A stretch of DNA of 64,000 nucleotides from Chloroflexota bacterium (lineage in GTDB: Bacteria > Chloroflexota > Anaerolineae > Anaerolineales > UBA11579). The position numbers and the translations under genes are program-made. This document shows, piece after piece, positions 6,579-21,262 of this stretch; positions within the stretch are counted from its first letter, which is position 1; each line of letters begins with the position of its first letter. Location of the stretch: NCBI GenBank assembly GCA_018662365.1, contig JABJGH010000022.1, positions 62,001 through 126,000 of the forward strand, given 5' to 3'. The notes under the pieces were generated by a model. That model ran no database searches. It was given only the letters and a program-made list of their open reading frames with translations, and was not told where the DNA came from.

Positions 6579-6925
6579 ATAGTTTCTAATTTCTGTTATT
6601 TATATTGTGCGAAAATTATATTTCATATTGTTTGTTTAGAAATTGTCTAATTTGTTTAATTTATAGACAATTTTTGTAATTTAAAGCGATTTGCACTCTG
6701 GTGGGACAGGTATCCCTTAATAGCTAGGACATCTGACACTTGATAAGCGTTTCCATTTGTTGAACTATATAAAGAGACGGTTTAACAAATACAAATCTGT
6801 AAGTTTAGATATTTAATCATCATATTAATCAAAGGATTGAAGCTGGTCTAAACGAACAATAATAAATATAGAAATAAATTTAAATCCGAAGCTTAATACT
6901 TATTCTAATGGGAAAGGAAGGAAAA
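6579..6925. other. 347-bp intergenic region upstream of the CODH/ACS operon
   Basis: No ORF of substance is seen. The left part holds the terminator of the response-regulator gene (6640-6675). The middle contains a small dyad GGGA ... TCCC (around 6703-6716). TTGATA (6740-6745) and TATATA (6766-6771) are 20 nt apart, a poor promoter match. The promoter of the large operon should be in this stretch and would give a leader of over 100 nt, but I cannot place it with confidence. Confidence 0.4.
6640..6675 (+). terminator. Terminator after the NarL-type regulator
   Basis: A 10-bp perfect inverted repeat AAATTGTCTA / TAGACAATTT (6640-6649 with 6664-6673) with a 14-nt loop is followed by a short T-run. 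The stem is AT-rich, so it is of moderate strength. Confidence 0.6.
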
Positions 6926-7318
6926 ATGGCCAAGAAGATTTATACGATTAATTTACCTGCAATGTATGCAGATCATCATGTGATTGAAGTTCGCCGATTG
7001 CTGATGGATGTTCCTGGCGTATCTGATGTTTACGCGAGCAGCGGTTTTCAGGTTGCTGAAATTGAAACTGAAGATACTGTAGAGGAAACAACACTTATTG
7101 AAATTCTAGAGAAAGCCGGATATATTGGAGAATTAGCTATTGATGGGGAAATTGAAATTACAGCTGCCGAAGCGGGGGGGAAATCAAAAATTTTCAGACA
7201 CAGCGCATTATATGAACAAACTAGTCAAGCGGTTAGTTTCACTCAAGTAGTACCAAGCGGGTCAAAAGCGCTTTGGCCTTGTCCTGGTTTGGGACCCATA
7301 ACAAGGGTTGAGGAATAA
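6926..7318 (+). CDS. HMA-fold-like small protein leading the CODH/ACS operon
   Basis: A 130-residue protein counted from ATG 6926, chosen because GGAAGGAA lies just upstream; an in-frame ATG at 6908 has no ribosome site. The first 75 residues look like a heavy-metal-associated (ferredoxin-like) fold (VPGVSDVYASSGFQVAEIE, LIEILEKAGYIG), but the usual MxCxxC metal site is replaced by LPAMYADHHV. The C-terminal half is unfamiliar and ends with a single Cys in ALWPCPGLGP. It stops 9 nt before cooS, so it is in the operon. A role in nickel delivery or in binding CODH is a guess from context. Confidence 0.6.
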   Translation: MAKKIYTINLPAMYADHHVIEVRRLLMDVPGVSDVYASSGFQVAEIETEDTVEETTLIEILEKAGYIGELAIDGEIEITAAEAGGKSKIFRHSALYEQTSQAVSFTQVVPSGSKALWPCPGLGPITRVEE

Positions 7319-7327
7319 GGAGAAGCT

Positions 7328-9337
7328 ATGCCTAAAAAACGAACCCCCCAAGAACAAAGTACTGATCCTGCAGCTCATCAAATGTTAATAAAGGCAGAGG
7401 AGCTCGGCATCTCTACAGCCTTTTCTCGTGCAGATGCTATGGCTCCTTGCAATATTGGGTCCGCCGGTATGTGTTGTAAAATTTGCGGAATGGGTCCTTG
7501 CCGCTTGGTAAAAGATGGACAAGTAGGTGTTTGTGGTGCAACCATTGATACGATCCAAGCTAGAAACCTTGTTAGAGGCATTGCAGCTGGTTCAGCCGCA
7601 CATTCAGATCATGGTCGTGATATGGCTTTTACATTAAAAGCTGTAGCTAATGGCACGGCCGAAGGATATATGATTCGCGATGTTGCTAAATTAAGAATAG
7701 TCGCTGAAAAATATGATATTCCCATTAAAGACAGATCTCCTGAAGAAATCGCTGATGAATTGGCCGACCTTTTCATTTCCCAATTTGGGCAACAACGTGG
7801 GGAAGTTGCGCCTACTCGTCTAGCCCCAGAAAAACGCCAAAAAATCTGGAGAGAACAAAATGTTATTCCTAGGGGAATTGATCGTGAAGTAGTTGAGGCA
7901 TTACATCGAACTCATATGGGAGATGACCAAGATCCAGTGCATATTTTAAATCATGCTATCCGAACTAGTCTGGCAGATGGTTGGGGTGGTTCTATGATTG
8001 CCACCGACGTTTCAGATATTCTATTTGGAACACCAGCTCCATTATTAGGATCTGCTAATCTTGGCGTGCTAAAGGACGACATGGTCAATGTGGTCGTACA
8101 TGGGCATGAACCTACACTAAGTGAAATGATAGTGGCGGCATCCCAAGATCCTGAAATAATAGAGTATGCAAAAAAAGCAGGAGCAAAAGGTGTTAATTTA
8201 GCCGGAATTTGTTGTACTGCAAATGAAATTTTAATGCGGCAAGGTGTACCGGCTGCTGGAAACTTTTTACACCAAGAATTATCCATCATGACTGGTGCCG
8301 TAGAGGCCATGGTCGTAGATGTACAGTGCATCATGCAAGCACTGGTAGGACTAGCAGAAAATTTCCACACAAAAGTTATTACCACCTCCCCCAAAGTAAA
8401 ACTTAAAGGGGCTACTCATATTGAATTTGAAGAGGGAAAAGCCCTAACTATTGCTAAAAATATTCTAAAAGAGGCCATTGATAATTATAAGAACCGTGGC
8501 GATATTACAATTCCTGAAAATCAAGAAAAACTGGTTCCTGGATTTTCTCATGAATACATTAATTATATGTTGGGAGGTAGTTATCGGAGTTCCTTCCGTC
8601 CTCTAAATGATGCAATAATGTCAGGAAGAATTCGTGGGGTAGCCGCAGTTGTTGGCTGCAATAACCCTCGTAGTCAACAAGATTATTTACACAATCATGT
8701 TACTCGTGAATTATTAAAACAAGATGTATTGATCGTTGAAACCGGATGCGGAGCCATTGCTGCTGCAAAAGTTGGATTGCTTCTTGGGGAGGCCGGGCTA
8801 GAACAAGTAGGACCTGGTTTGCGGGAAGTATGCGAAACGATTGGAATTCCACCAGTTCTCCATATGGGTTCCTGCGTAGATAATACTCGAATTCTCACCG
8901 TCCTGACTCAAATGGTGGAAGACGGGGGGTTGGGGGATGATATTAGCGATATCCCTGCGGTTGGGCTGGCTCCTGAGTGGATGAGTGAGAAAGCCTTAGC
9001 AATCGGCACTTATTGTGTTGCCTCTGGTGCATACGTTATATTCGGTGGGTCTTCTCCTATAAGTGGTATGCCAGATAAAATGGCGGATAGTGGAATTCTT
9101 TCTGAATATATTAGCAGTGGATGGGAAGAATTATATGGAGGAAAATTAGAATTTGAGCCAGATGTTGATGAATTGATACGAAAGACACTTGAGCATATTG
9201 ATAAGAAACGTGCGGCTCTTGGATTGCCAGTATATGATGCTGATCGATTTGGAAAAGGTGGCGATGACAGAATGAAAGAACTTGAAAGTCTATCGCTTGC
9301 AGAACGAAAAGTCGCCCTTTATGGCGTAGAAGGTTAG
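7328..9337 (+). CDS. cooS: Carbon monoxide dehydrogenase, Ni-containing catalytic subunit
   Basis: A 669-residue CODH (AcsA/CooS family), which interconverts CO2 and CO at a Ni-Fe-S C cluster and supplies CO to acetyl-CoA synthase. D- and B-cluster cysteines are Cys41, 49, 50, 53, 58 and 69 (CNIGSAGMCCKICGMGPC, VCG). C-cluster ligand segments are all visible: VVHGHEP, GICCTANE, VDVQCIM, VGCNNPR, ETGCGAIAA and MGSCVDNTR. Length is normal. The start has AAGGAGAAG upstream. Being followed 10 nt later by acsB, it is the CODH half of a bifunctional CODH/ACS rather than a respiratory CODH. Confidence 0.97.
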   Translation: MPKKRTPQEQSTDPAAHQMLIKAEELGISTAFSRADAMAPCNIGSAGMCCKICGMGPCRLVKDGQVGVCGATIDTIQARNLVRGIAAGSAAHSDHGRDMAFTLKAVANGTAEGYMIRDVAKLRIVAEKYDIPIKDRSPEEIADELADLFISQFGQQRGEVAPTRLAPEKRQKIWREQNVIPRGIDREVVEALHRTHMGDDQDPVHILNHAIRTSLADGWGGSMIATDVSDILFGTPAPLLGSANLGVLKDDMVNVVVHGHEPTLSEMIVAASQDPEIIEYAKKAGAKGVNLAGICCTANEILMRQGVPAAGNFLHQELSIMTGAVEAMVVDVQCIMQALVGLAENFHTKVITTSPKVKLKGATHIEFEEGKALTIAKNILKEAIDNYKNRGDITIPENQEKLVPGFSHEYINYMLGGSYRSSFRPLNDAIMSGRIRGVAAVVGCNNPRSQQDYLHNHVTRELLKQDVLIVETGCGAIAAAKVGLLLGEAGLEQVGPGLREVCETIGIPPVLHMGSCVDNTRILTVLTQMVEDGGLGDDISDIPAVGLAPEWMSEKALAIGTYCVASGAYVIFGGSSPISGMPDKMADSGILSEYISSGWEELYGGKLEFEPDVDELIRKTLEHIDKKRAALGLPVYDADRFGKGGDDRMKELESLSLAERKVALYGVEG

Positions 9338-9347
9338 GAGGAGAACA

Positions 9348-11615
9348 ATGTCCCGATATATAGCTACTAGAGCCATTCGAGGTGCAAATGCGTTAGTAAT
9401 TGAAGCAGAAACAATGCTTCATAAGGCTTTGTCTGAAAAGGGGCCTGATACTCCCGTTTCATTTCCGAATACAGCGTATTATTTACCTACTATTTATGCG
9501 ATGACAGGTCAGTCAGTTGAAACACTTGGACAACTTTCTGAATCCTTGAGTCATGCAAGAGAATTATTGCATCCCATTCCCGCTGCAAAAAACTGGACAC
9601 CTTATTTAGGTGAAACATTGGATGGCGGAATGGCCACTTTAATTGCTGCAGAGACTATTGAAGCGATTCGATATATTTATGATCTGCAGCCAGAATCCTT
9701 CCCGGGATTTGAATTGGCTGGCGGGACAAAATACGATAACCTAAATGGGGAGGGGCATTTAAATGGTGCGATTGATGATATTCAATTGCGATCTTGGGGA
9801 ATCCAATTGGTTGATGGACGTATGCCAGGGTTTGCGGCAATAGTCGGAGCTGCTAAATCAAATGAAGTTGCAGTAAAAATTGTTCGGGAATTACAAAAGA
9901 GAAATATTCTCACATTTTTATGTGGCAATGTAAATGGCAGAAGCATCATTGATCAATTACAAGAGGAAGGTGTTGAGTTAGGATATGACACTTACACGGT
10001 TCCCTTTGGAAGAGATACCCTAAGTGCGATTTATGCATTGGGGTTTGCTGCTCGATCTGCCCTTACGTTTGGTGGAATAAAGGCCGGACAAGCCCGTGAT
10101 ATTTTGATGTACAACAAAGATCGGGTTTATGCATTCGTGCTTGCTCTTGGCGAGGTAGATGATCTTAAGTATGCAGCAGCTGCAGGCGCAATTAATTTTG
10201 GTTTTCCAGTTATTGCTGATACCGTCATTCCTGAAATCTTACCCACAGGCATTACTACATATGAACATGTAATCAGTATGCCCTTTAACGAAATTCATGG
10301 GGGAGATGATCTAGAAAAAGCTGAACGTTTAGTGCAAAAATGTATTGAAGTTCGAGGTGTGAAAGTACAAATTGCAGATGTACCCGTACCTGTTCCCTAT
10401 GGTTCTGCTTTTGAAGGTGAAGTTGTCCGTAAAGCAGATATGCGAATAGAGTTTGGCGGGAAAAAATCAAGAGCATTTGAATATCTCCATATGGCTGAAC
10501 TTGATGAAGTTGTTGACGGGAAAGTTGAGATTATTGGTGCTGGATTTGAAGATATGGAACCACAAGGGGCGATGGATCTTGCTATTGTTGTGAAAGTAGC
10601 TGGAAGAGAAATGCAGGAAGATTTTGAGCCAGTTTTAGAACGACAAATTCACTATTTTGTAAACGGTGCATCTGGAATACAACATGTTGGACAAAGAGAC
10701 ATTGCTTGGATTCGTATTTCAAACAATGCGGTTGAAAAAGGGTTTGATCTAGAGCATTTCGGGAAAATTCTTCACGCTAGATTCCATTCAGATTTTGGAG
10801 CTATTGTTGACAAAGTGCAAGTAGATATTTATACCGAACCAACTTTGATTGAGGAATGGCTAGGAAAAGCTCGCGAATCCTATGATTATCGCAACAAACG
10901 CCTTGCCGATCTTACCGATGATGCAGTAGATGAGTTTTATTCTTGCACGCTTTGCCAATCCTTCGCACCTGACCATGTCTGTATTGTCAGCCCTGAAAGA
11001 TTAGGTTTATGCGGTGCCTATAACTGGCTTGACTGTAAAGCTTCTTTCAGCATTAATCCCACCGGCCCCAATCAACCTATTAAACTTGGAAAACTAGTTG
11101 ATATGGATAAAGGATACTGGGAAGGAACCAATGAGTACGCAGCTATTGGCTCTCATGGTGTAGTTCCTGAAGTTGCCATGTATTCAATTATGGAAAATCC
11201 AATGACTGCTTGTGGATGTTTTGAATGCATTGTGATGCTAATTCCTGAAACAAATGGCGTAATGATAGTGAATCGTGAGGATACTAGTATGACTCCCGCT
11301 GGAATGACTTTTAGCACATTAGCAGGCATGGCTGGTGGTGGAATGCAAACCCCCGGTGTTATGGGCGTAGGAAAATATTATTTGGTTAGCCCAAAATTTA
11401 TCTCTGCGGATGGTGGATTCAAGCGAGTTGTCTGGATGAGCAGTGTTCTTAAGGAGACAATGGCCGATGAATTTAGGATCGTTGCGGAACGCGAGGGCGA
11501 TCCAGATCTGATTGATCGAATTGCGGATGAAAATGATGTAGGTACAGTAGACGAATTGCTTGCTTGGCTTGAAGAGCATAATCATCCTGCACTTATTATG
11601 GAGTCCATGTTTTAA
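9348..11615 (+). CDS. acsB: Acetyl-CoA synthase (CODH/ACS alpha subunit)
   Basis: A 755-residue full-length bacterial-type ACS, condensing CO, CoA and the methyl group from the corrinoid protein. It has the N-terminal CODH-contact domain that the shorter archaeal CdhC lacks. A-cluster ligands are Cys533, 536, 545 and 555 for the cubane and Cys622-Gly-Cys624 for the distal nickel. Their spacing equals that of the Moorella enzyme (506/509/518/528/595/597) with a constant offset of 27. AGGAGGAG precedes the start. It is the second enzyme of the operon. Confidence 0.97.
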   Translation: MSRYIATRAIRGANALVIEAETMLHKALSEKGPDTPVSFPNTAYYLPTIYAMTGQSVETLGQLSESLSHARELLHPIPAAKNWTPYLGETLDGGMATLIAAETIEAIRYIYDLQPESFPGFELAGGTKYDNLNGEGHLNGAIDDIQLRSWGIQLVDGRMPGFAAIVGAAKSNEVAVKIVRELQKRNILTFLCGNVNGRSIIDQLQEEGVELGYDTYTVPFGRDTLSAIYALGFAARSALTFGGIKAGQARDILMYNKDRVYAFVLALGEVDDLKYAAAAGAINFGFPVIADTVIPEILPTGITTYEHVISMPFNEIHGGDDLEKAERLVQKCIEVRGVKVQIADVPVPVPYGSAFEGEVVRKADMRIEFGGKKSRAFEYLHMAELDEVVDGKVEIIGAGFEDMEPQGAMDLAIVVKVAGREMQEDFEPVLERQIHYFVNGASGIQHVGQRDIAWIRISNNAVEKGFDLEHFGKILHARFHSDFGAIVDKVQVDIYTEPTLIEEWLGKARESYDYRNKRLADLTDDAVDEFYSCTLCQSFAPDHVCIVSPERLGLCGAYNWLDCKASFSINPTGPNQPIKLGKLVDMDKGYWEGTNEYAAIGSHGVVPEVAMYSIMENPMTACGCFECIVMLIPETNGVMIVNREDTSMTPAGMTFSTLAGMAGGGMQTPGVMGVGKYYLVSPKFISADGGFKRVVWMSSVLKETMADEFRIVAEREGDPDLIDRIADENDVGTVDELLAWLEEHNHPALIMESMF

Positions 11616-11646
11616 GAAAAATTGATGGAAATGATTAAGGTGTTCA

Positions 11647-12177
11647 ATGAAAAATGAATCGATAAACTCACCTAAACTTATCCGTGATTTGATGACCGTG
11701 GGCGTTTTTACATGCCCGCCCGATTCTCCTATTCCCGAACTTGTTCGCAAAATGATTGAAAAAGATATTGAGACGACGGTAGTACAACAATCTGATGGAC
11801 AGGCAATTGGAATAGTTTCTAAAGAGGAACTCGTCAAAGCCTACAGTTCTGGAGATTATTTAGAAAAATCTGCTGAAGAAATAATGAGTCCTGGATTACC
11901 TCAACTTCCCCCGGATATTCCTATATCAGCTGCAGCTCAGATTATGCAGGATAATGGAAACCGGGTGATTTTTTTGATGCATAATGCAGGAGGAATTTCA
12001 TACCCTGCTGCTATCATTTCATATGACCATATCTTAAGGCATATGGCAATGGAATCGGAAGAAGATATTGAGGATCTTGGCATTCAGGCAAAGCGAAAAG
12101 CTCCATTGGATGTATTTTTAGAAAGACGGGATGAAGCGAAAAGAAATAATTTATCCACATTAATGGATGAAGAATAA
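11647..12177 (+). CDS. CBS-domain pair protein inside the acs operon
   Basis: A 176-residue protein with two CBS motifs: about 10-75 (LMTVGVFTCPPDSPIPELVRKM, then GIVSKEEL) and about 78-140 (IMSPGLPQLPPDIPISAAAQIM). A charged tail follows. CBS pairs bind adenine nucleotides or SAM in other proteins. It sits between acsB and acsD, 31 and 27 nt from its neighbours and with its own AAGG site, so it is cotranscribed. A regulatory role linking CODH/ACS to AMP/ATP level is inference; no catalytic domain is attached. Confidence 0.85.
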   Translation: MKNESINSPKLIRDLMTVGVFTCPPDSPIPELVRKMIEKDIETTVVQQSDGQAIGIVSKEELVKAYSSGDYLEKSAEEIMSPGLPQLPPDIPISAAAQIMQDNGNRVIFLMHNAGGISYPAAIISYDHILRHMAMESEEDIEDLGIQAKRKAPLDVFLERRDEAKRNNLSTLMDEE

Positions 12178-12204
12178 ATATAAAATTAATTTAGGAGACA
12201 ACTA

Positions 12205-13179
12205 ATGTCCATTGAAATACCCAAGGATTCTTGGCCCGGAGAAGTAAGAACGATTACCATCGGGGCAACTGCAGAAGAAGGCGGTACTCGTACTTCGACA
12301 GTGACGGTGGGGGGTGAGAAAACGCTTCCCTTTATGCATTTTGAATCTCCAATGCCCTATCGCCCTGTTGTAGCGATTGAAATAAAAGATCGTAAACCTG
12401 ATGACTGGTCTCAATTGCTCAATGAAACTTGGGGAGAGGTGATGGAAAACCCTGGTTTATGGGCAAAAGCGGCTGAGGAGGTGGGTGCCGAGATAATTCA
12501 ATTGTCACTGAGTTTAACGGATAAGGATGGCAATCGAAATACTGCGGAAGCAGCGGTTTCTGCGGTTAAAAATATTTTAGAAAATACCGGTTTACCCATA
12601 ATGGTATATGGTCCTGGCCAAGCAGAAATTGACAATGAATTAATTGTGCCTATATCGGATGCCACCAAAGGTGAAAGAGTAGTCCTTGGTATTTGTGAAG
12701 ATAAAAATTATCGAACAATAGTTGCATCAGCCTTGGCTAATGATCATTTAGTCACAGCTCGTGCACCGATGGATGTAAATCTTTCAAAACAGTTAAATAT
12801 CCTTATTCAGGATATGGGTTTGTCCCTCGATAGAGTTTTAATGGACCCAACTACTGGAGCTCTTGGATATGGGATTGAATATGGGTTCTCAGTAATGGAG
12901 AGGCTTCGATTGGCTGCACTGCAAGGTGATGCAATGACACAATTGCCCATGGCAGTGACTGTAGGCTTTGAAGCCTGGAAGACAAAGGAAGCAAAAGTGG
13001 GCGTCGATGTACCCAAAACATGGGGAGATTGGCTTGAAAGAAGTATTACTTGGGAAACATTAACTGCAATTTCATTGATTGAAACAGGTGCTGATATCGT
13101 TTCCTTGCGCCACCCTGAAAGTGTTAAAAGGGTACGAGCCGCTATCGAAGAATTAATCGCTGTTCCTGCGATTGCTTAA
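12205..13179 (+). CDS. acsD: Corrinoid iron-sulfur protein, small subunit
   Basis: A 324-residue TIM-barrel subunit of the corrinoid iron-sulfur protein (AcsD/CdhD), which carries methyl from methyl-THF to ACS. Recognisable segments are the start MSIEIPKDSWPGEVR, GGEKTLPFMHFE, AEIIQLSLSLTDKDG and the conserved LMDPTTGALGYGIEYGFS. Length matches the family. Strong TTAGGAGA upstream. Followed by its partner acsC 20 nt later. Confidence 0.95.
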   Translation: MSIEIPKDSWPGEVRTITIGATAEEGGTRTSTVTVGGEKTLPFMHFESPMPYRPVVAIEIKDRKPDDWSQLLNETWGEVMENPGLWAKAAEEVGAEIIQLSLSLTDKDGNRNTAEAAVSAVKNILENTGLPIMVYGPGQAEIDNELIVPISDATKGERVVLGICEDKNYRTIVASALANDHLVTARAPMDVNLSKQLNILIQDMGLSLDRVLMDPTTGALGYGIEYGFSVMERLRLAALQGDAMTQLPMAVTVGFEAWKTKEAKVGVDVPKTWGDWLERSITWETLTAISLIETGADIVSLRHPESVKRVRAAIEELIAVPAIA

Positions 13180-13199: not shown

Positions 13200-14540
13200 A
13201 TGGCTCTTTCTGGAATTGAAATTTATAAATTATTACCTAAAACGAATTGTAAAGATTGTGAATTTCCAACATGTCTTGCTTTCGCGATGAAATTGGCTAC
13301 AAAACAAGTAGAACTTTCTGCCTGTCCACATGTATCGGAAGAATCCCAATCGCTACTAGCTGCATCTTCAGAACCTCCTATCAGATTGGTATCATTGAAA
13401 TCTGATGGATATGAAGTGAAAGCTGGGAATGAAGTGGTTTTGTTTCGCCATGAAAAAACATTTTACAACATGCCAGGTTTGTTCATTCGGGTTACTGATG
13501 AGATGACATCAGAACAAATTCAAAAGAAACTTAAGCCGGCTGAAGAATATTTAGTCAATTATGTGGGAATTGATTTGGCGGTGGACGGATATGCAATTGA
13601 ATCTACCTCCAACGATCCAACCAAGTTTAAATCTGCAGTTGAATCTGTTCGAAGCGTGAGTAAAAAACCCATTGTGTTAATTTGCAAAGACCCTAAGGTA
13701 ATACGGGCGGGACTTGATGTTCTTGAAGGTGAGTCTCCCCTTATTTATGCGGCGGATGAGTCAAATTGGGAAGAAATGGGAGAAATTGCAAAAAATGCAA
13801 ATGCGCCATTAGTAGTTTCTTCACCAAATATTGACAGCATTGCAGAAATTACCGAGAAGTTAAAAGATTTCGGTGTGTTAAATCTAGTCTTGGACCCCGC
13901 AAATAGGGATCTAAGTACTTCTTTAATGCAATTTACACAAATAAGACGATTGGCTATTAAAAAAGATTTTCGTCCGCTAGGTTATCCAGTAATTGCATTT
14001 CCTTGTCATGCTCCATCACCCGAAACTGAATCTATTCAAGCTGCTCAAGCAATAACCAAATATGCTGGTTTTATAGTTTTAGAAACTTTTTCACCTGAAG
14101 CTCTTTACGCTTTGTTAGTATTACGCCAAAACATTTATACCGATCCTCAGAAACCGATTCAGGTTCAACCAGGGATATACGAAATTAACGATCCAAAACC
14201 AGAAGACCCCGTATTGGTCACGACTAATTTCAGTATCACATATTTTAGTGTGGCAAACGAAGTTGAAGGATCTGGTCAACCTGCTTGGTTGCTTGTCTCT
14301 GAAGCCGAGGGAATGAGTGTATTGACTGCTTGGGCTGCAGGAAACTTCGATGCTGAAAGAATTGCGAAAGATGTAAAAAGGTTCGAAATTGCAGATAAGG
14401 TGACGAATAAACAAATCGTCCTTCCCGGACATGTTTCTGTATTATCCGGCGAATTAGAAGAAGAACTCCCAGATTGGGATGTTCGAGTTGGACCTCGTGA
14501 AGCAGTAGATTTGCCAGCATTTCTAAAGCAAGCTCTATAA
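13200..14540 (+). CDS. acsC: Corrinoid iron-sulfur protein, large subunit
   Basis: A 446-residue large subunit. The N-terminal domain binds a low-potential 4Fe-4S cluster through Cys17, 20, 25 and 42 (NCKDCEFPTC ... SACPH), the CX2CX4CX16C pattern of the family. A TIM-barrel core (about 90-320) and a C-terminal cobamide-binding domain (about 330-446) follow. The cluster reductively reactivates cob(II)amide, assisted by the activator encoded 20 nt downstream. Confidence 0.95.
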   Translation: MALSGIEIYKLLPKTNCKDCEFPTCLAFAMKLATKQVELSACPHVSEESQSLLAASSEPPIRLVSLKSDGYEVKAGNEVVLFRHEKTFYNMPGLFIRVTDEMTSEQIQKKLKPAEEYLVNYVGIDLAVDGYAIESTSNDPTKFKSAVESVRSVSKKPIVLICKDPKVIRAGLDVLEGESPLIYAADESNWEEMGEIAKNANAPLVVSSPNIDSIAEITEKLKDFGVLNLVLDPANRDLSTSLMQFTQIRRLAIKKDFRPLGYPVIAFPCHAPSPETESIQAAQAITKYAGFIVLETFSPEALYALLVLRQNIYTDPQKPIQVQPGIYEINDPKPEDPVLVTTNFSITYFSVANEVEGSGQPAWLLVSEAEGMSVLTAWAAGNFDAERIAKDVKRFEIADKVTNKQIVLPGHVSVLSGELEEELPDWDVRVGPREAVDLPAFLKQAL

Positions 14541-14560: not shown

Positions 14561-16504
14561 ATGGCAAAACATAAAATATTTTTTGAAAATATTTCTGAAC
14601 CCATTAGTGTTTCTACCGGGACTACCCTGGTTGATGCTGCACAATCTGCGGGAGTAGACATACAACAACCCTGTGGGGGCCAGGGGCGTTGTGGGAGATG
14701 TGTTGCCAAAATCACCTCAGGGCATGTTCGTCGTAGGAGTTCATTAAGGTTGACAAATGAGGATATAGAGGAAGGTTATACCTTAGCCTGCCAGTCAGTC
14801 ATTGAATCAGATGTTTCAGTATACGTACCTGAGCAGGAAAAAATCGAGCGCAGGTTAGTTACTGATTTAATCGCAAAAAATGTACTTGTGCCAGAAAATT
14901 ACGATGGCTTAATTCATCAATCGATCAAAAGAATGAACTTGGATATATCGCCTCCAACGCTGGAAGATCAAACAGATGATTGGGGCCGACTTCAAAGAGT
15001 ACTTCGTAAAGAATTTCAAATTGAAAACATTAATATTTCCTTAGAGCTATTAGTGAAATTGGGAAATGTACTTCGTGAAAGTGATTGGAAAGTGCACGTA
15101 ATTCTTGATATAGAAATAAATGAATCTGGCCTTCATCCGAGACTTATTGACATTCTGCCTGGGCATATTTCTGGAAATGAACCACTATGGGGAATAGCTA
15201 TTGACATTGGTACTACAACCGTTTCTGTATGGCTAACTGATCTAATTTCTGGAGAGGTCAAAGCACAAGTAGCTGAATATAATCAGCAAATAACCCGTGG
15301 CGAAGATGTAATTTCTCGTATTATATATGCCAATAAAAACAATAATAAAATCGAAATGGCAGATTTGGTTATTGATAAAACGATTAATCTTCTAATTGAA
15401 ACTGCATGCAAGAGGATGCAAATAAAATCATCAGAGATTTATAAAGCAACGATTTCTGGGAACAGCACGATGATCCACTTATTATTGAAAATCCCCACCG
15501 CTAGCATCAGACTTTCGCCATTTGTAACTGCAATTAATGAAATCCCATTGTTTACTGCTGAAGATATTGGGATAGACATCAATCCGGGGGGAACTATTGA
15601 TTGTTTACCCGGTGTTGCTAGTTATGTGGGAGCAGATATTACCGCTGGAGTTCTATCATCAAAGGTTAATGAGACCGATAAAACAACTCTTTTTATGGAT
15701 GTCGGCACAAATGGAGAAATTGTATTAGGTTCAAAAGATTGGCTCGTCACTTGTGCATGTTCTGCAGGCCCTGCTTTTGAAGGTGCCGGAGTAATAGATG
15801 GAATGAGAGCAACGAAGGGCGCAATAGAAGAGGTTTGGATTAGCAATGATAGTTTTGAGCCTAATCTCCGAGTAATTGGAAATACAAAACCCAAAGGGAT
15901 TTGCGGAAGCGGTTTGATATCTCTTCTTTCTGAGCTCTTTCTTGTAGGCTTAGTCGATAAAGCGGGAAATATAAAAATAAATCTTCCTATTGATCGTGTT
16001 CGAGAGGGTGAACACGGGGCTGAATATGTTGTTGTGTGGGGAGAAGATTCTGCCACCGGGGCTGACATTGCGATCAACAAAGTGGATATTGATAACTTGT
16101 TGCGCGCAAAGGCCGCAATTTATGCAGGATTTAGTGTATTGGCAGAAAAGGTTGGTGTTCCTCTAGAAACCGTCGAGCAGGTACTCATTGGCGGTTCATT
16201 TGGCCAGTACATCAACGTAGAGAAGGCCATTCAAATTGGGCTTTTGCCCGATTTGAAATGGGAACAATTTCATTTTCTTGGGAATACCTCTGTCCAGGGG
16301 GCTTATAAATCATTGCTAGATTGGAGAACCCGAGAGAAAGTAACGGAAATTGCCTCAAAAATGACGTATATAGAATTATCCGCAGATAATAAATTTTATG
16401 ATGCTTTTATGTCGGCAATGTTTTTACCTCATACCGACTTAAGTAAATTTCCTTCTGTAGAGATCGCAGTAAATGAGAATTTATTGAAAACTGATTTGGA
16501 GTAA
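14561..16504 (+). CDS. Reductive activator of corrinoid protein (RACo-like, 2Fe-2S + ASKHA)
   Basis: A 647-residue protein. An N-terminal plant-type 2Fe-2S ferredoxin domain has Cys38, 44, 47 and 77 (CGGQGRCGRC ... LACQ). A linker and middle domain lead into an ASKHA actin-like ATPase domain from about residue 208 (GIAIDIGTTTVSVWLTDL), with DVGTNGEIVLG and the late GGSFGQYINVEKA. RACo proteins use ATP to drive electron transfer to inactive cob(II)amide of the corrinoid protein. Position directly after acsC supports that role. Confidence 0.92.
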   Translation: MAKHKIFFENISEPISVSTGTTLVDAAQSAGVDIQQPCGGQGRCGRCVAKITSGHVRRRSSLRLTNEDIEEGYTLACQSVIESDVSVYVPEQEKIERRLVTDLIAKNVLVPENYDGLIHQSIKRMNLDISPPTLEDQTDDWGRLQRVLRKEFQIENINISLELLVKLGNVLRESDWKVHVILDIEINESGLHPRLIDILPGHISGNEPLWGIAIDIGTTTVSVWLTDLISGEVKAQVAEYNQQITRGEDVISRIIYANKNNNKIEMADLVIDKTINLLIETACKRMQIKSSEIYKATISGNSTMIHLLLKIPTASIRLSPFVTAINEIPLFTAEDIGIDINPGGTIDCLPGVASYVGADITAGVLSSKVNETDKTTLFMDVGTNGEIVLGSKDWLVTCACSAGPAFEGAGVIDGMRATKGAIEEVWISNDSFEPNLRVIGNTKPKGICGSGLISLLSELFLVGLVDKAGNIKINLPIDRVREGEHGAEYVVVWGEDSATGADIAINKVDIDNLLRAKAAIYAGFSVLAEKVGVPLETVEQVLIGGSFGQYINVEKAIQIGLLPDLKWEQFHFLGNTSVQGAYKSLLDWRTREKVTEIASKMTYIELSADNKFYDAFMSAMFLPHTDLSKFPSVEIAVNENLLKTDLE

Positions 16505-16516
16505 GAGGAGAGAGTT

Positions 16517-17440
16517 ATGTATATTATCGGAGAGAACATTCATATCATTTCACCAAAAGTAAAAGTCGCATTAAAAGAAAGAAATAAGAATTTCTTTCAA
16601 GAATCAGCGATTAAACAAGTGGAAGCTGGAGCAAGTGCAATTGACTTAAATATGGGTCCGCGGAAAAAGGATTGGGAAGAAGTATTTCCTTGGATCGTCA
16701 AAGCAGTTGAGGAAGTAGTAGATGTCCCACTTGTTATTGATACAACTAACGTAAATGGCATGGAAGCGGCTTTAAAAGCCGCAACCAAGGCCCAACCCAT
16801 TTTGAATTCTACATCTGCAGAAGCGGAAAGATTAGAAAAAGTACCTTTGTTAGCAAAAAAATATGGAGCCAGGTTAATTGCGCTCACAATGGAAAAAAGC
16901 GGAATACCTGTAGGTGCAGACGAAAGAGTAGGTATTGCCTTAGAAAAGTTAATCCCTAGGTTATTAGAACTAGACTACAACATGCAGGACCTAATTATTG
17001 ATCCATTAGTACTGACCGTATCCGGGTGCCAAGAGTTCTGTCCAGAATTAATTGAGGCTGTGAGAACACTCCAATATGCATGGGATCCTCCCCCTGGGAT
17101 TTCAGTTGGTTTATCTAATGTTTCTAATGCAGTACCAAATGAAAACCGACCTTTGATCAACCAAGTATATTGCGCAATGCTAATGGGTGCTGGTTTGAAC
17201 ATGATGATCGCCGATCCATTTGATAAGGGGCTTCGCGAAACAATTCGCGTAATTGAAGACCGAGACGAAACAACTGACGTTGGGAAGCTTTATATAAAGA
17301 TTTCAGATCGGGTTGCTGCCATGGAAGAGCCAAGCATTGATGATGTAAACATGTCTGATCCTAAGCAAGCTGAGATTTGGAAGACGGTGCAAATATTATT
17401 GAATAAAGTAATTTATGCTGATTCATACCTTCAACAATAG
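16517..17440 (+). CDS. acsE: Methyl-THF:corrinoid iron-sulfur protein methyltransferase
   Basis: A 307-residue pterin-binding TIM-barrel protein that moves the methyl group from methyl-THF to Co(I) of AcsCD. Diagnostic segments are IGENIHIIS, the DLNMGP loop, LVIDTTNVNGMEAAL, DPLVLTVSGCQEFCPE and ISVGLSNVSNAVPNENR (pterin contact). It is about 40 residues longer at the C-terminus than the Moorella enzyme. GAGGAGAG upstream fixes the start. Confidence 0.95.
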   Translation: MYIIGENIHIISPKVKVALKERNKNFFQESAIKQVEAGASAIDLNMGPRKKDWEEVFPWIVKAVEEVVDVPLVIDTTNVNGMEAALKAATKAQPILNSTSAEAERLEKVPLLAKKYGARLIALTMEKSGIPVGADERVGIALEKLIPRLLELDYNMQDLIIDPLVLTVSGCQEFCPELIEAVRTLQYAWDPPPGISVGLSNVSNAVPNENRPLINQVYCAMLMGAGLNMMIADPFDKGLRETIRVIEDRDETTDVGKLYIKISDRVAAMEEPSIDDVNMSDPKQAEIWKTVQILLNKVIYADSYLQQ

Positions 17441-18978: not shown

Positions 18979-19761
18979 ATGAAAATTGCAGTCAGCGGAA
19001 AAGGTGGAGTTGGAAAAACAACCATAACGGCCTTAATTGCCCAAGCATTTGCAGATAGCGGCAAGGATGTATTAGCTGTGGATGCCGACCCATCTCCCTG
19101 TTTGGCAGACGCATTATGTTTTCCTAGTGAATTAAAAGATTCACTTCACCCAATTGCTGAAATGGAAGACCTTATTTATGAGAGAACGGGAGCCAAACCA
19201 GGGGCTTCTGGTGGATTCTTCTCCCTCAACCCCCGTGTGGATGATATTCCAGATAAATTTTCGGTTAAACACCGAGGGGTCCGATTGCTAGAAATGGGTT
19301 CTGTCGAATTTGGTGGGGGAGGTTGTATTTGTCCAGAAGGGGCAATGGTAAAAACTTTATTTACTCATTTGTTATTTAGAAAAGATGAAGTATTACTGTT
19401 GGACATGTACGCTGGGGTAGAACATTTAGGCAGGGCAACTGTAGATTTTGTAGATGCTATGTTGATCGTAGTTGAACCTACTAATCGAAGTTTAAATACG
19501 TCAACCCAAATCATAAAATTAGCGACCGATATCGGATTAAACAAAATATATTTGGTTGCCAATAAAATCAGGAATGAAGGGGACGTCGAGTTTATTGAAA
19601 AATTTAAACCGGATATTCCACTTTTAGCCAATTTCAATTCTAGCCAAAAAGTGAATGAGGCAGACCATTTAAACGTAGCGGTTTATGATCATGTGAAGGA
19701 ACTGAAAGAAGAAGCAATGTTAACAGTAAAAAGACTTTATGATTTATCAAATATTGACTAG
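18979..19761 (+). CDS. cooC: CooC-family nickel-insertion ATPase (first copy)
   Basis: A 260-residue MinD/CooC-type P-loop ATPase. It has a deviant Walker A GKGGVGKTT (7-15), DADPSPCLADAL and a Cys116-x-Cys118 motif (GGGGCICPEG) that in CooC binds Ni or Zn at a dimer interface. It follows metVF by 27 nt and is followed by a second, divergent CooC. One copy probably serves CODH and the other ACS (AcsF role), but sequence alone does not assign them. Confidence 0.9.
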   Translation: MKIAVSGKGGVGKTTITALIAQAFADSGKDVLAVDADPSPCLADALCFPSELKDSLHPIAEMEDLIYERTGAKPGASGGFFSLNPRVDDIPDKFSVKHRGVRLLEMGSVEFGGGGCICPEGAMVKTLFTHLLFRKDEVLLLDMYAGVEHLGRATVDFVDAMLIVVEPTNRSLNTSTQIIKLATDIGLNKIYLVANKIRNEGDVEFIEKFKPDIPLLANFNSSQKVNEADHLNVAVYDHVKELKEEAMLTVKRLYDLSNID

Positions 19762-19791: not shown

Positions 19792-20580
19792 ATGGTAACT
19801 ACAATCGCATTGGCTGGAAAGGGAGGGGTAGGGAAAACCACAATTTCAGCTATGGTAATAAAATATCTCATAAAAACCCAGCCGGGATCAATATTGGCAA
19901 TAGATGCTGACCCTAGTGCTAACCTTAATATGGTCTTAGGTTTGGGATTGGATTGGACGATTGGGGACATTAGAGAGGATATGCTTCATAAAGTGAAGCA
20001 GTCGATCACTGCCGGTGGTGCTGCCATGGGGGCTTTGCCTGGGGGGATGAGCAAACAAGATTATCTTAATTATGAAGTTCATTCTGCTGTCGAAGAAGGA
20101 AATCGATTTGACTTAATTGCAATGGGCCAACCTGAAGGACCAGGATGTTATTGTGCTGTTAACCATACTCTCCGAAATGTCATTGACGATATTAGCACCG
20201 GATATAAATACATCGTAATTGATAATGAAGCAGGAATGGAGCATTTAAGTAGGCGCACTACTCGAAACGTCGAACATTTATTAGTTGTATCAGATCCTAC
20301 GCAAAGAGGGTTAGTTGCAGCCGAGCGAATTGCCGACTTAAGAAGAACTCTTGATATTGATGTGGAAAACGCATATATAATTTTGAATAGAGTACCAGGG
20401 GAAGTTCCTTCTGCTGTAAAAAATAAAATAGATGAATTAGATTTGACTTATCTGGGTAGTGTACCTGCCAACACCGAGCTAACAGAAATGGAATTCGAAG
20501 GTGAGGCCGTAGTTGAAGTATCCGATGATAACCCTGTGTATTTAGCAATTTCTGAGATGATGGAAAATATAATCAGTTGA
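19792..20580 (+). CDS. cooC: CooC-family nickel-insertion ATPase (second copy)
   Basis: A 262-residue paralogue of the preceding gene. Walker A is GKGGVGKTT (9-17), followed by AIDADPSANLNMVLG and Cys119-Tyr-Cys121 in PEGPGCYCAVNH. It also has NEAGMEHLSRRTTRN, typical of CooC/AcsF. TGGAG precedes the start. The two copies differ strongly in sequence, which argues for distinct clients rather than a recent duplication. Confidence 0.9.
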   Translation: MVTTIALAGKGGVGKTTISAMVIKYLIKTQPGSILAIDADPSANLNMVLGLGLDWTIGDIREDMLHKVKQSITAGGAAMGALPGGMSKQDYLNYEVHSAVEEGNRFDLIAMGQPEGPGCYCAVNHTLRNVIDDISTGYKYIVIDNEAGMEHLSRRTTRNVEHLLVVSDPTQRGLVAAERIADLRRTLDIDVENAYIILNRVPGEVPSAVKNKIDELDLTYLGSVPANTELTEMEFEGEAVVEVSDDNPVYLAISEMMENIIS

Positions 20581-20596
20581 CAATATATTGGAACCT

Positions 20597-21262
20597 ATGC
20601 CAGATCATATAAAAGTATCCGAAAATATACTCTCATTTAATGATGAAATTGCTAAAATCAATAGAAAGTTGTTGGATGAGTATAAATTATTTTCTATAAA
20701 TATAATGGCTTCTCCTGGGGCAGGTAAAACAAGCGCCATATTAAAAACTTTCGAACAAATAACTGGAAAATTTAAGTTGGGAATGGTGGATGGTGATCTT
20801 GCTTCATCGATTGACGCCGATAAAGCTAACCAATCTGGAATTTCAGCTGTCCAAATAAATACAGGAGGAGGATGCCATCTAGATGCCAAGATGGTAAATG
20901 ACGCACTCAAGAAATTGCCATTAGGGGCATTGGATGCTTTAGTGGTTGAAAATGTAGGGAACCTTGTTTGTCCCGCAAATTTTGATCTGGGAACTGACAA
21001 AAACATTTTGATTGCGAGTATACCGGAAGGGGATGATAAGCCTTATAAGTATCCGGGTATTTATCGGGGAGTCGATGCCCTAATTATTAACAAAGTTGAC
21101 CTTTTGCCTTATATTGAGTTTGATTTAAATTATTTCAAAAAAGGTGTGGAGATATTAAATCCCGGATTGGTAACGTTTCCAATTTCTTGTGTTTCAGGAG
21201 AAGGGATAGCAGATTGGGTAAAATGGTTTACCGAACATATTTTTGCAAAAAAGGGCACATGA
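20597..21262 (+). CDS. HypB-like nickel GTPase in the CODH/ACS operon
   Basis: A 221-residue SIMIBI GTPase counted from ATG 20597 (a TTG at 20588 is also possible). The P-loop is SPGAGKTS (39-46), and NKVDLLPY gives guanine specificity. The metal site of the HypB G domain is present as Cys93-His94 and Cys125 (GGCHLDA, NLVCPA), with the same 32-residue spacing as in E. coli HypB. It lacks HypB's N-terminal nickel motif and His stretch. There is no hydrogenase in the window, so a nickel supply role for CooS/AcsB is the simplest reading. Last gene before the terminator. Confidence 0.85.
   Translation: MPDHIKVSENILSFNDEIAKINRKLLDEYKLFSINIMASPGAGKTSAILKTFEQITGKFKLGMVDGDLASSIDADKANQSGISAVQINTGGGCHLDAKMVNDALKKLPLGALDALVVENVGNLVCPANFDLGTDKNILIASIPEGDDKPYKYPGIYRGVDALIINKVDLLPYIEFDLNYFKKGVEILNPGLVTFPISCVSGEGIADWVKWFTEHIFAKKGT

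Follow-up and report, generated by a model that had tools for sequence, protein, structure and literature searches.

What is a small protein built of two CBS domains doing in the middle of an acs operon? The operon lies in the window, by which we mean the whole 64,000-nucleotide stretch of a Chloroflexota contig that was analyzed. At the core of the Wood-Ljungdahl pathway stands CODH/ACS, whose acetyl-CoA synthase is an ancient CO2-fixing enzyme, and to our knowledge the direct adjustment of CODH/ACS in the cell is poorly understood. The earlier note on this DNA had reported a two-CBS open reading frame (ORF) between acsB and acsD. Its coordinates are exact, and both neighbors were verified with Pfam and NCBIfam (Table 1). 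The three genes share one strand, with acsB ending 31 bp upstream of the CBS-pair ORF and acsD starting 27 bp downstream of it. No promoter-like or terminator-like sites were found within positions 11400–12400. The acsE-like gene is followed by a gene for methylene-THF reductase and by two cooC-like ones; in this part the scan covered only 18979–19761, and the gene names within 19792–21262 are those we presume to apply. At the other end, window positions 6908–7318, upstream of cooS, encode a 136-aa protein with a sub-threshold HMA match (21.2 versus 24.8 bits). Its HMA-like part contains no Cys and its single Cys is located in the tail. A counterpart of this protein precedes cooS in most loci of the all-species scan described below.

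Table 1. Features of the acs operon and of the CBS-pair protein (positions in the window)
Feature	Position	Strand	Evidence
cooS/acsA, CO dehydrogenase; precedes acsB	7328..9337	+	Pfam, NCBIfam
acsB, acetyl-CoA synthase	9348..11615	+	Pfam; NCBIfam NF040764 above cut-off
CBS-pair protein (Bateman module + conserved C-terminal tail), 176 aa	11647..12177	+	ATG start, ORF + Pfam + model
CBS domain 1, residues 12-67; C23, E42, G55, E61	11680..11847	+	Pfam (G000:C64:73680-73847), conservation
CBS domain 2; P85, D90, H112, Y119-A122, H128	11875..12045	+	G000:C64:73875-74045, alignment to 2ef7, conservation
Conserved tail, residues about 139-176; DLGI-x-A-x-R motif, predicted helix 153-174	12061..12174	+	Alignment, model
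acsD, corrinoid protein small subunit	12205..13179	+	Pfam; NCBIfam NF003376 above cut-off
acsC, corrinoid protein large subunit	13200..14540	+	Pfam, NCBIfam
acsV-like corrinoid activation protein	14561..16504	+	Pfam full RACo domains; under NCBIfam AcsV cut-off
acsE-like methyltransferase	16517..17440	+	Pfam, NCBIfam

The window protein matches PF00571 in two stretches, with a score of 63.6 bits (cut-off 24) and an E-value of 2.1e-17. Pfam gives no second domain type beside CBS, in keeping with the earlier claim that a catalytic domain is lacking, and NCBIfam yields only sub-threshold matches, the best being PrdR with 30.9 of 795 bits. For comparison across the family, 82 of the 84 collected CBS ORFs were put in the alignment (L091 and L145, copies of L053 and L060, were omitted). 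All 91 aligned members have a CBS match at E 0.01 or better. The other domain seen is a weak DUF1127 likeness of the tail, at E 0.01 or better in 19 of the 91 (best 2.1e-5); the score in one member scanned is 22.6 bits against a cut-off of 23.3, and the window protein shows no DUF1127 match. Pfam found no DNA-binding domain in the window protein or in the 91 aligned members. The AlphaFold (AF2) model (pLDDT 89.9, pTM 0.76) is a plain Bateman module with a C-terminal helix. Solved Bateman structures match it over residues 7–139 with Z up to 16.9, including MJ0100 bound to SAM/MTA (Z 16.5) and AcuB in complex with adenine nucleotides (Z 15.9). The best matches in both fold and sequence are the stand-alone archaeal or bacterial CBS-pair proteins PH0107 (2yzi), ST2348 (2ef7) and ATU1752 (3fhm), and some sequence matches are archaeal CBS proteins that are ribosome-bound according to the title of entry 9zni. 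The Foldseek and VIA lists consist mostly of generic Bateman folds tied within about 1–2 Z, and therefore no specific ligand can be deduced from them.

Among 61 genomes including the window's own, mostly of the same family or order, 22 carry acsB. A long-form CBS gene stands between acsB and acsD in 10 of these 22 (G000, which is the window's own genome, G001, G006, G007, G008, G014, G028, G033, G042 and G046), and a short divergent one takes the same place in G025, G045 and G052. In G039 a short-form gene lies directly before acsD at a contig start, and acsB ends another contig. Four relatives without the CBS gene (G003, G030, G043 and G055) carry an AcsB-AcsD fusion instead; G049, G040 and G053 have acsB with neither the CBS gene nor the fusion, and the acs locus of G027 is interrupted by a contig end. 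Seven acsB-bearing relatives are thus without the gene, which is dispensable to the pathway. The family gene was found in none of the 39 acsB-less relatives, where the best CBS match has an E-value of 2.2e-13 versus 3.2e-51 or better for the long form. In a phylum sample of 400 Chloroflexota, 48 genomes carry acsB. Eight of the 400 contain a strong match (E 3.2e-67 or better), and all eight have acsB; none of the 352 acsB-less genomes has one, the next best match being at E 2.2e-23. G419 carries part of a CBS gene 3' of acsB, close to where its contig ends. The acsB context was read in 22 of the 48 genomes. Here acsD immediately follows acsB in G246, G138, G086 (first locus), G177, G323, G231, G248, G146 and G170, no acsD follows acsB in G077 and the second G086 locus, and contig ends truncate the contexts of G062 and G238. 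Outside the clade of the CBS gene, the gene is absent from most acsB genomes whose context was read. One genome of another class (G070) holds a more ordinary CBS-pair gene with 27% identity between acsB and acsD (L152:4763-5179), which may have been recruited to this position independently.

A scan of one genome per species, covering 84,980 bacterial and archaeal species, extends this picture. A single-protein query of genome contigs gave no match, while a 14-row alignment query did, and the best 80 of 100 confirmed loci were obtained. These 80 were selected through the CBS gene, so they show its position and not its frequency among acs operons; several belong to genomes also present in the relatives or phylum sets (11 identical AcsB rows). 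All of the best 80 lie within acs operons. The order acsB-CBS-acsD is present in 74; in three, two CBS genes stand 3' of a fused acsB-acsD, in two the CBS gene precedes acsD with no acsB found upstream, and in one (L138) two CBS genes follow a partial acsD at a contig start. The titles name Chloroflexota or its subgroups in 79 cases and Chromatiales in one (L132), whose contig is likely misbinned because its AcsB groups with Chloroflexota rows. The gap between the CBS gene and acsD has a median of 42 bp and is at most 200 bp in 72 of 76 loci, and that between acsB and the CBS gene has a median of 82 bp and is at most 200 bp in 55 of 77.

Random positions of the gene in related genomes would have contradicted the earlier note, and this is not what was observed. 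In the relatives, phylum and all-species sets alike the gene is confined to the acs operon, and its place between acsB and acsD is not a chance insertion. It is also under purifying selection: NG86 dN/dS is 0.027–0.156 in 11 of 13 close pairs, those with computable dS. We consider it very unlikely that a general CBS protein merely landed in the operon in a single ancestor and now has an unrelated or trans-acting role, such as responding to energy charge for other enzymes or acting on ribosomes. CBS proteins are indeed common, with 21 CBS matches in this genome, and the ribosome-bound archaeal proteins (9zni) are among the sequence matches, but among the 61 and 400 genomes strong matches never occur without acs, and the position is stable over a broad set of families. 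Since the gene is non-catalytic, kept in place over many families, absent without the operon and under purifying selection, it most likely serves the acs operon. A role for CODH/ACS or the corrinoid protein is well founded, because the gene is locked to the operon and encodes no catalytic domain.

What the protein might bind can be approached from its conserved residues. R13, G55, A97 and G116 are invariant in the 91 aligned sequences. C23 is kept in 90, H112 in 87, Y119 in 86 and P120 in 90. Beyond residue 138 the tail conserves D143, G145, R150, P153 and R161. The short-form genes lack the tail after residue 138; they keep C23 and H112 and do not keep H128. The canonical CBS nucleotide motif is G-h-h-S/T-x-x-D, and alignment to the solved structure 2ef7 places its Asp at E61 in CBS1 and at H128 in CBS2. 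As a family, the proteins conform to this motif in neither CBS domain (n = 91). In CBS1, position 58 is Gly in 39, Ser in 36 and Thr in 16, and position 61 is Glu in 76 and Asp in 8. In CBS2, position 122 is Ala in 85 and Gly in 5, and position 128 is His in 82 and Asp in 1. Many genuine CBS proteins lack the motif, so the deviation speaks to the ligand and not to the fold. With Glu (76/91) and His (82/91) replacing the canonical Asp, plain adenylate sensing is less certain than was assumed in the earlier note, which had suggested AMP/ATP or SAM as a possible ligand. Judged from the fold, an adenosyl compound would be the most likely ligand, but the altered motif argues for a non-standard one. 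Elsewhere in the same genome, Asp occupies the motif position in 13 of 18 readable CBS domains (counted by eye), and none of those read has His at the place of H128 or Cys at that of C23. C23, H112, the CBS2 His replacing the usual Asp and the conserved tail form a signature of the family's own.

Another possibility is that C23, H112 and H128 bind metal or become oxidized. The protein would then respond to metals or to redox state and help to assemble or protect the A-cluster or the corrinoid. Their conservation, the absence of Cys at the first and His at the third place from the other CBS domains read in the genome, and the Ni and Fe-S enzymes encoded by the operon are consistent with such a factor, as is a structural match to HRPI (1xkf, Z 13.6), a CBS protein with bound zinc. 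The zinc ligands of HRPI are Cys and His. Only C23 would presumably fit an Hrp1-like zinc site in the CBS-pair protein, which we keep as a lead. H128 is not retained in the short form, however, and where CBS genes occur in tandem (four loci, L097, L136, L138 and L151) the second copy has Pro for H112; its tail differs too. We regard this explanation as quite unlikely.

The relatives that fuse AcsB to AcsD make a pure scaffold the main rival. In 4 of the 22 acsB-bearing relatives a single AcsB-AcsD protein of about 1215–1229 aa is encoded, and its joint, exactly where the CBS gene would stand, is a Pro/Ala-rich linker plus a short amphipathic, helix-like stretch. Such a linker recalls the swinging-arm linkers of 2-oxoacid dehydrogenase E2. 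CBS domains within the linker had been expected and would have counted as direct evidence from fusion, but reading it by eye showed none. Counted by locus, fusions through a Pro/Ala-rich linker occur in L058, L059, L061, L063, L097, L136 and L151, and probably in L155. The CBS-pair protein could accordingly be a structural tether, a non-covalent bridge that keeps AcsB beside the corrinoid protein for efficient methyl handover, an end that relatives would reach through the long flexible AcsB-AcsD linker. The AcsB tree (88 sequences, FastTree; built without 7 ORFs that were long or carried inteins and without 11 identical rows) puts the four fusion rows in one clade with support 99. Together with G049 and the 70 long-form CBS rows they make one group with 100% support, and the short-form rows are a separate group (99%). 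G049 resembles a gene loss, as it is nested within the long-form group. A tree on the first 500 AcsB residues has poorer resolution, and there the four fusion rows split apart, which weakens the case for a tether. So do G049, G040 and G053, which have neither gene nor fusion, and L097, L136 and L151, where the fusion occurs together with two CBS genes; L138 is similar, with the same linker end on its partial acsD. Because L097, L136 and L151 carry both, we reject the idea that CBS gene and fusion strictly exclude each other, and the fusion is no simple substitute for the CBS gene. A tether and nothing more is in our judgment unlikely.

Other features were observed at the acs loci. In eight (L084, L097, L116, L134, L136, L143, L151 and L155) an intein-like insert lies directly before a Cys of the AcsB CGCFEC motif, and L136 and L151 have a second one before a Cys of CQSFAPDHVC; the Cys residues of both motifs are, we assume, A-cluster cysteines. 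Pfam finds Intein_splicing and LAGLIDADG_3 in L151, and the short insert of L134 matches Intein_splicing weakly. Between acsB and the CBS gene, L055 carries a ferritin-like gene (PF00210; 10001-10477, minus strand), and L054 has a near-identical ORF in the same interval (8324-8860). The ORFs between acsB and the CBS gene were rejected as further CBS copies, the one scanned being ferritin-like and the others looking unrelated by eye. In L083 (7735-10971), a single ORF of 1078 aa matches both AcsC and AcsV and may join the corrinoid protein to its activator.

Rates of change were compared in the 24 loci that retain all ten genes, after eight loci had been excluded beforehand. The CBS gene changes faster than the adjacent enzyme genes, with a median pairwise difference of 0.33 versus 0.16–0.30 for acsB, acsD, acsC, acsV and acsE. 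Its interspecies distances correlate best with those of AcsE (0.90) and AcsD (0.89), a weak signal from 24 non-independent loci, and we do not rely on this mirror-tree preference as evidence.

We favor, at slightly under even odds (about 0.45), the reading that the CBS-pair protein serves the acetyl-CoA synthase system as a dedicated subunit with a regulatory (adaptor) role. The gene would be co-transcribed with acsB and acsD. The product is predicted to fold as a two-CBS Bateman module; going by this fold class it is probably a dimer, and it would bind a small ligand. Its conserved C-terminal tail would most likely make the contact with AcsB, with the corrinoid protein AcsCD, or with both. 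The corrinoid-protein side is indicated by the short gap to acsD, which is interrupted less frequently than the longer one to acsB, and likewise by the CBS genes adjoining acsC in the fusion loci. Ligand binding could alter the contact and so step up or slow down the passage of methyl groups from AcsE via AcsCD to AcsB. The absence of the gene from seven acsB-bearing relatives and the departures at both canonical Asp positions count against this reading. Given the Bateman fold, the conserved tail and the precedent of AcuB, a ligand-responsive adaptor on AcsB-AcsCD is the simplest model. More specific, and on the doubtful side, is the proposal of a Bateman allosteric subunit whose rebuilt pocket (C23, H112 and H128) would respond to some non-standard ligand from the Wood-Ljungdahl pathway and act as a gate on methyl transfer between AcsB and the corrinoid protein. 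Candidate ligands may then include donors of adenosyl or methyl groups, metals, and thiol or CoA compounds. If true, this would be a regulator acting directly on CODH/ACS.

In the available portions of the literature searched (including PMC6390638, PMC5736913 and PMC11887813), we recognized no description of a CBS gene in an acs operon or of an AcsB-AcsD fusion. The search likewise brought up nothing that we recognized on inteins in acetyl-CoA synthase, and no directly acting CODH/ACS regulator of the allosteric-subunit kind. Neither the Bateman fold nor the notion of Bateman regulators linked to an operon is new, and the search found no paper on the CBS family of the acs operon. A conserved non-enzymatic gene in the acs operon of many Chloroflexota families provides a defined protein for testing direct regulation or scaffolding. 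The natural alternatives, namely loss, AcsB-AcsD fusion, and fusion with two CBS genes, are ready-made comparisons.

Several known systems resemble the CBS-pair protein in part. The stand-alone proteins 2yzi, 2ef7 and 3fhm have no tie to acs operons that we know of, and the residue alignment shows that 2ef7 still has Asp in the nucleotide motif, in contrast to E61 and H128 in the CBS-pair family. Hypoxic response protein 1 (Rv2626c, 1xkf/1y5h) is likewise a two-CBS protein, with zinc in the crystal according to its title and a weak sequence match (5.5e-6); we know of no link between it and acs. Like the protein studied here, AcuB of B. subtilis and G. stearothermophilus is small, non-catalytic and of the Bateman type, its gene lies next to those of a system that forms acetyl-CoA, and its fold matches with Z 15.9 over 125 residues. 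As described in the available portions of PMC13121692 and PMC13039410, AcuB, which the acu operon encodes, responds to AMP or Ap4A and acts through AcuC to control acetyl-CoA synthetase. AcuB consists of a Bateman module plus an ACT domain, whereas the CBS-pair protein has no ACT domain in Pfam and a different tail, about 38 residues past CBS2. The operons differ as well, with AcuA/AcuC in one and cooS, acsB, acsD, acsC, acsV and acsE in the other, and CODH/ACS is unrelated. The CBS pair of MJ0100, which binds SAM and MTA, shares only 19% identity and is part of a larger protein (chain residues 386–509). It has the same Bateman fold (Z 16.5, 2.2 Å over 124 residues), and a methyl-group ligand of this kind would suit a methyl-transfer operon.
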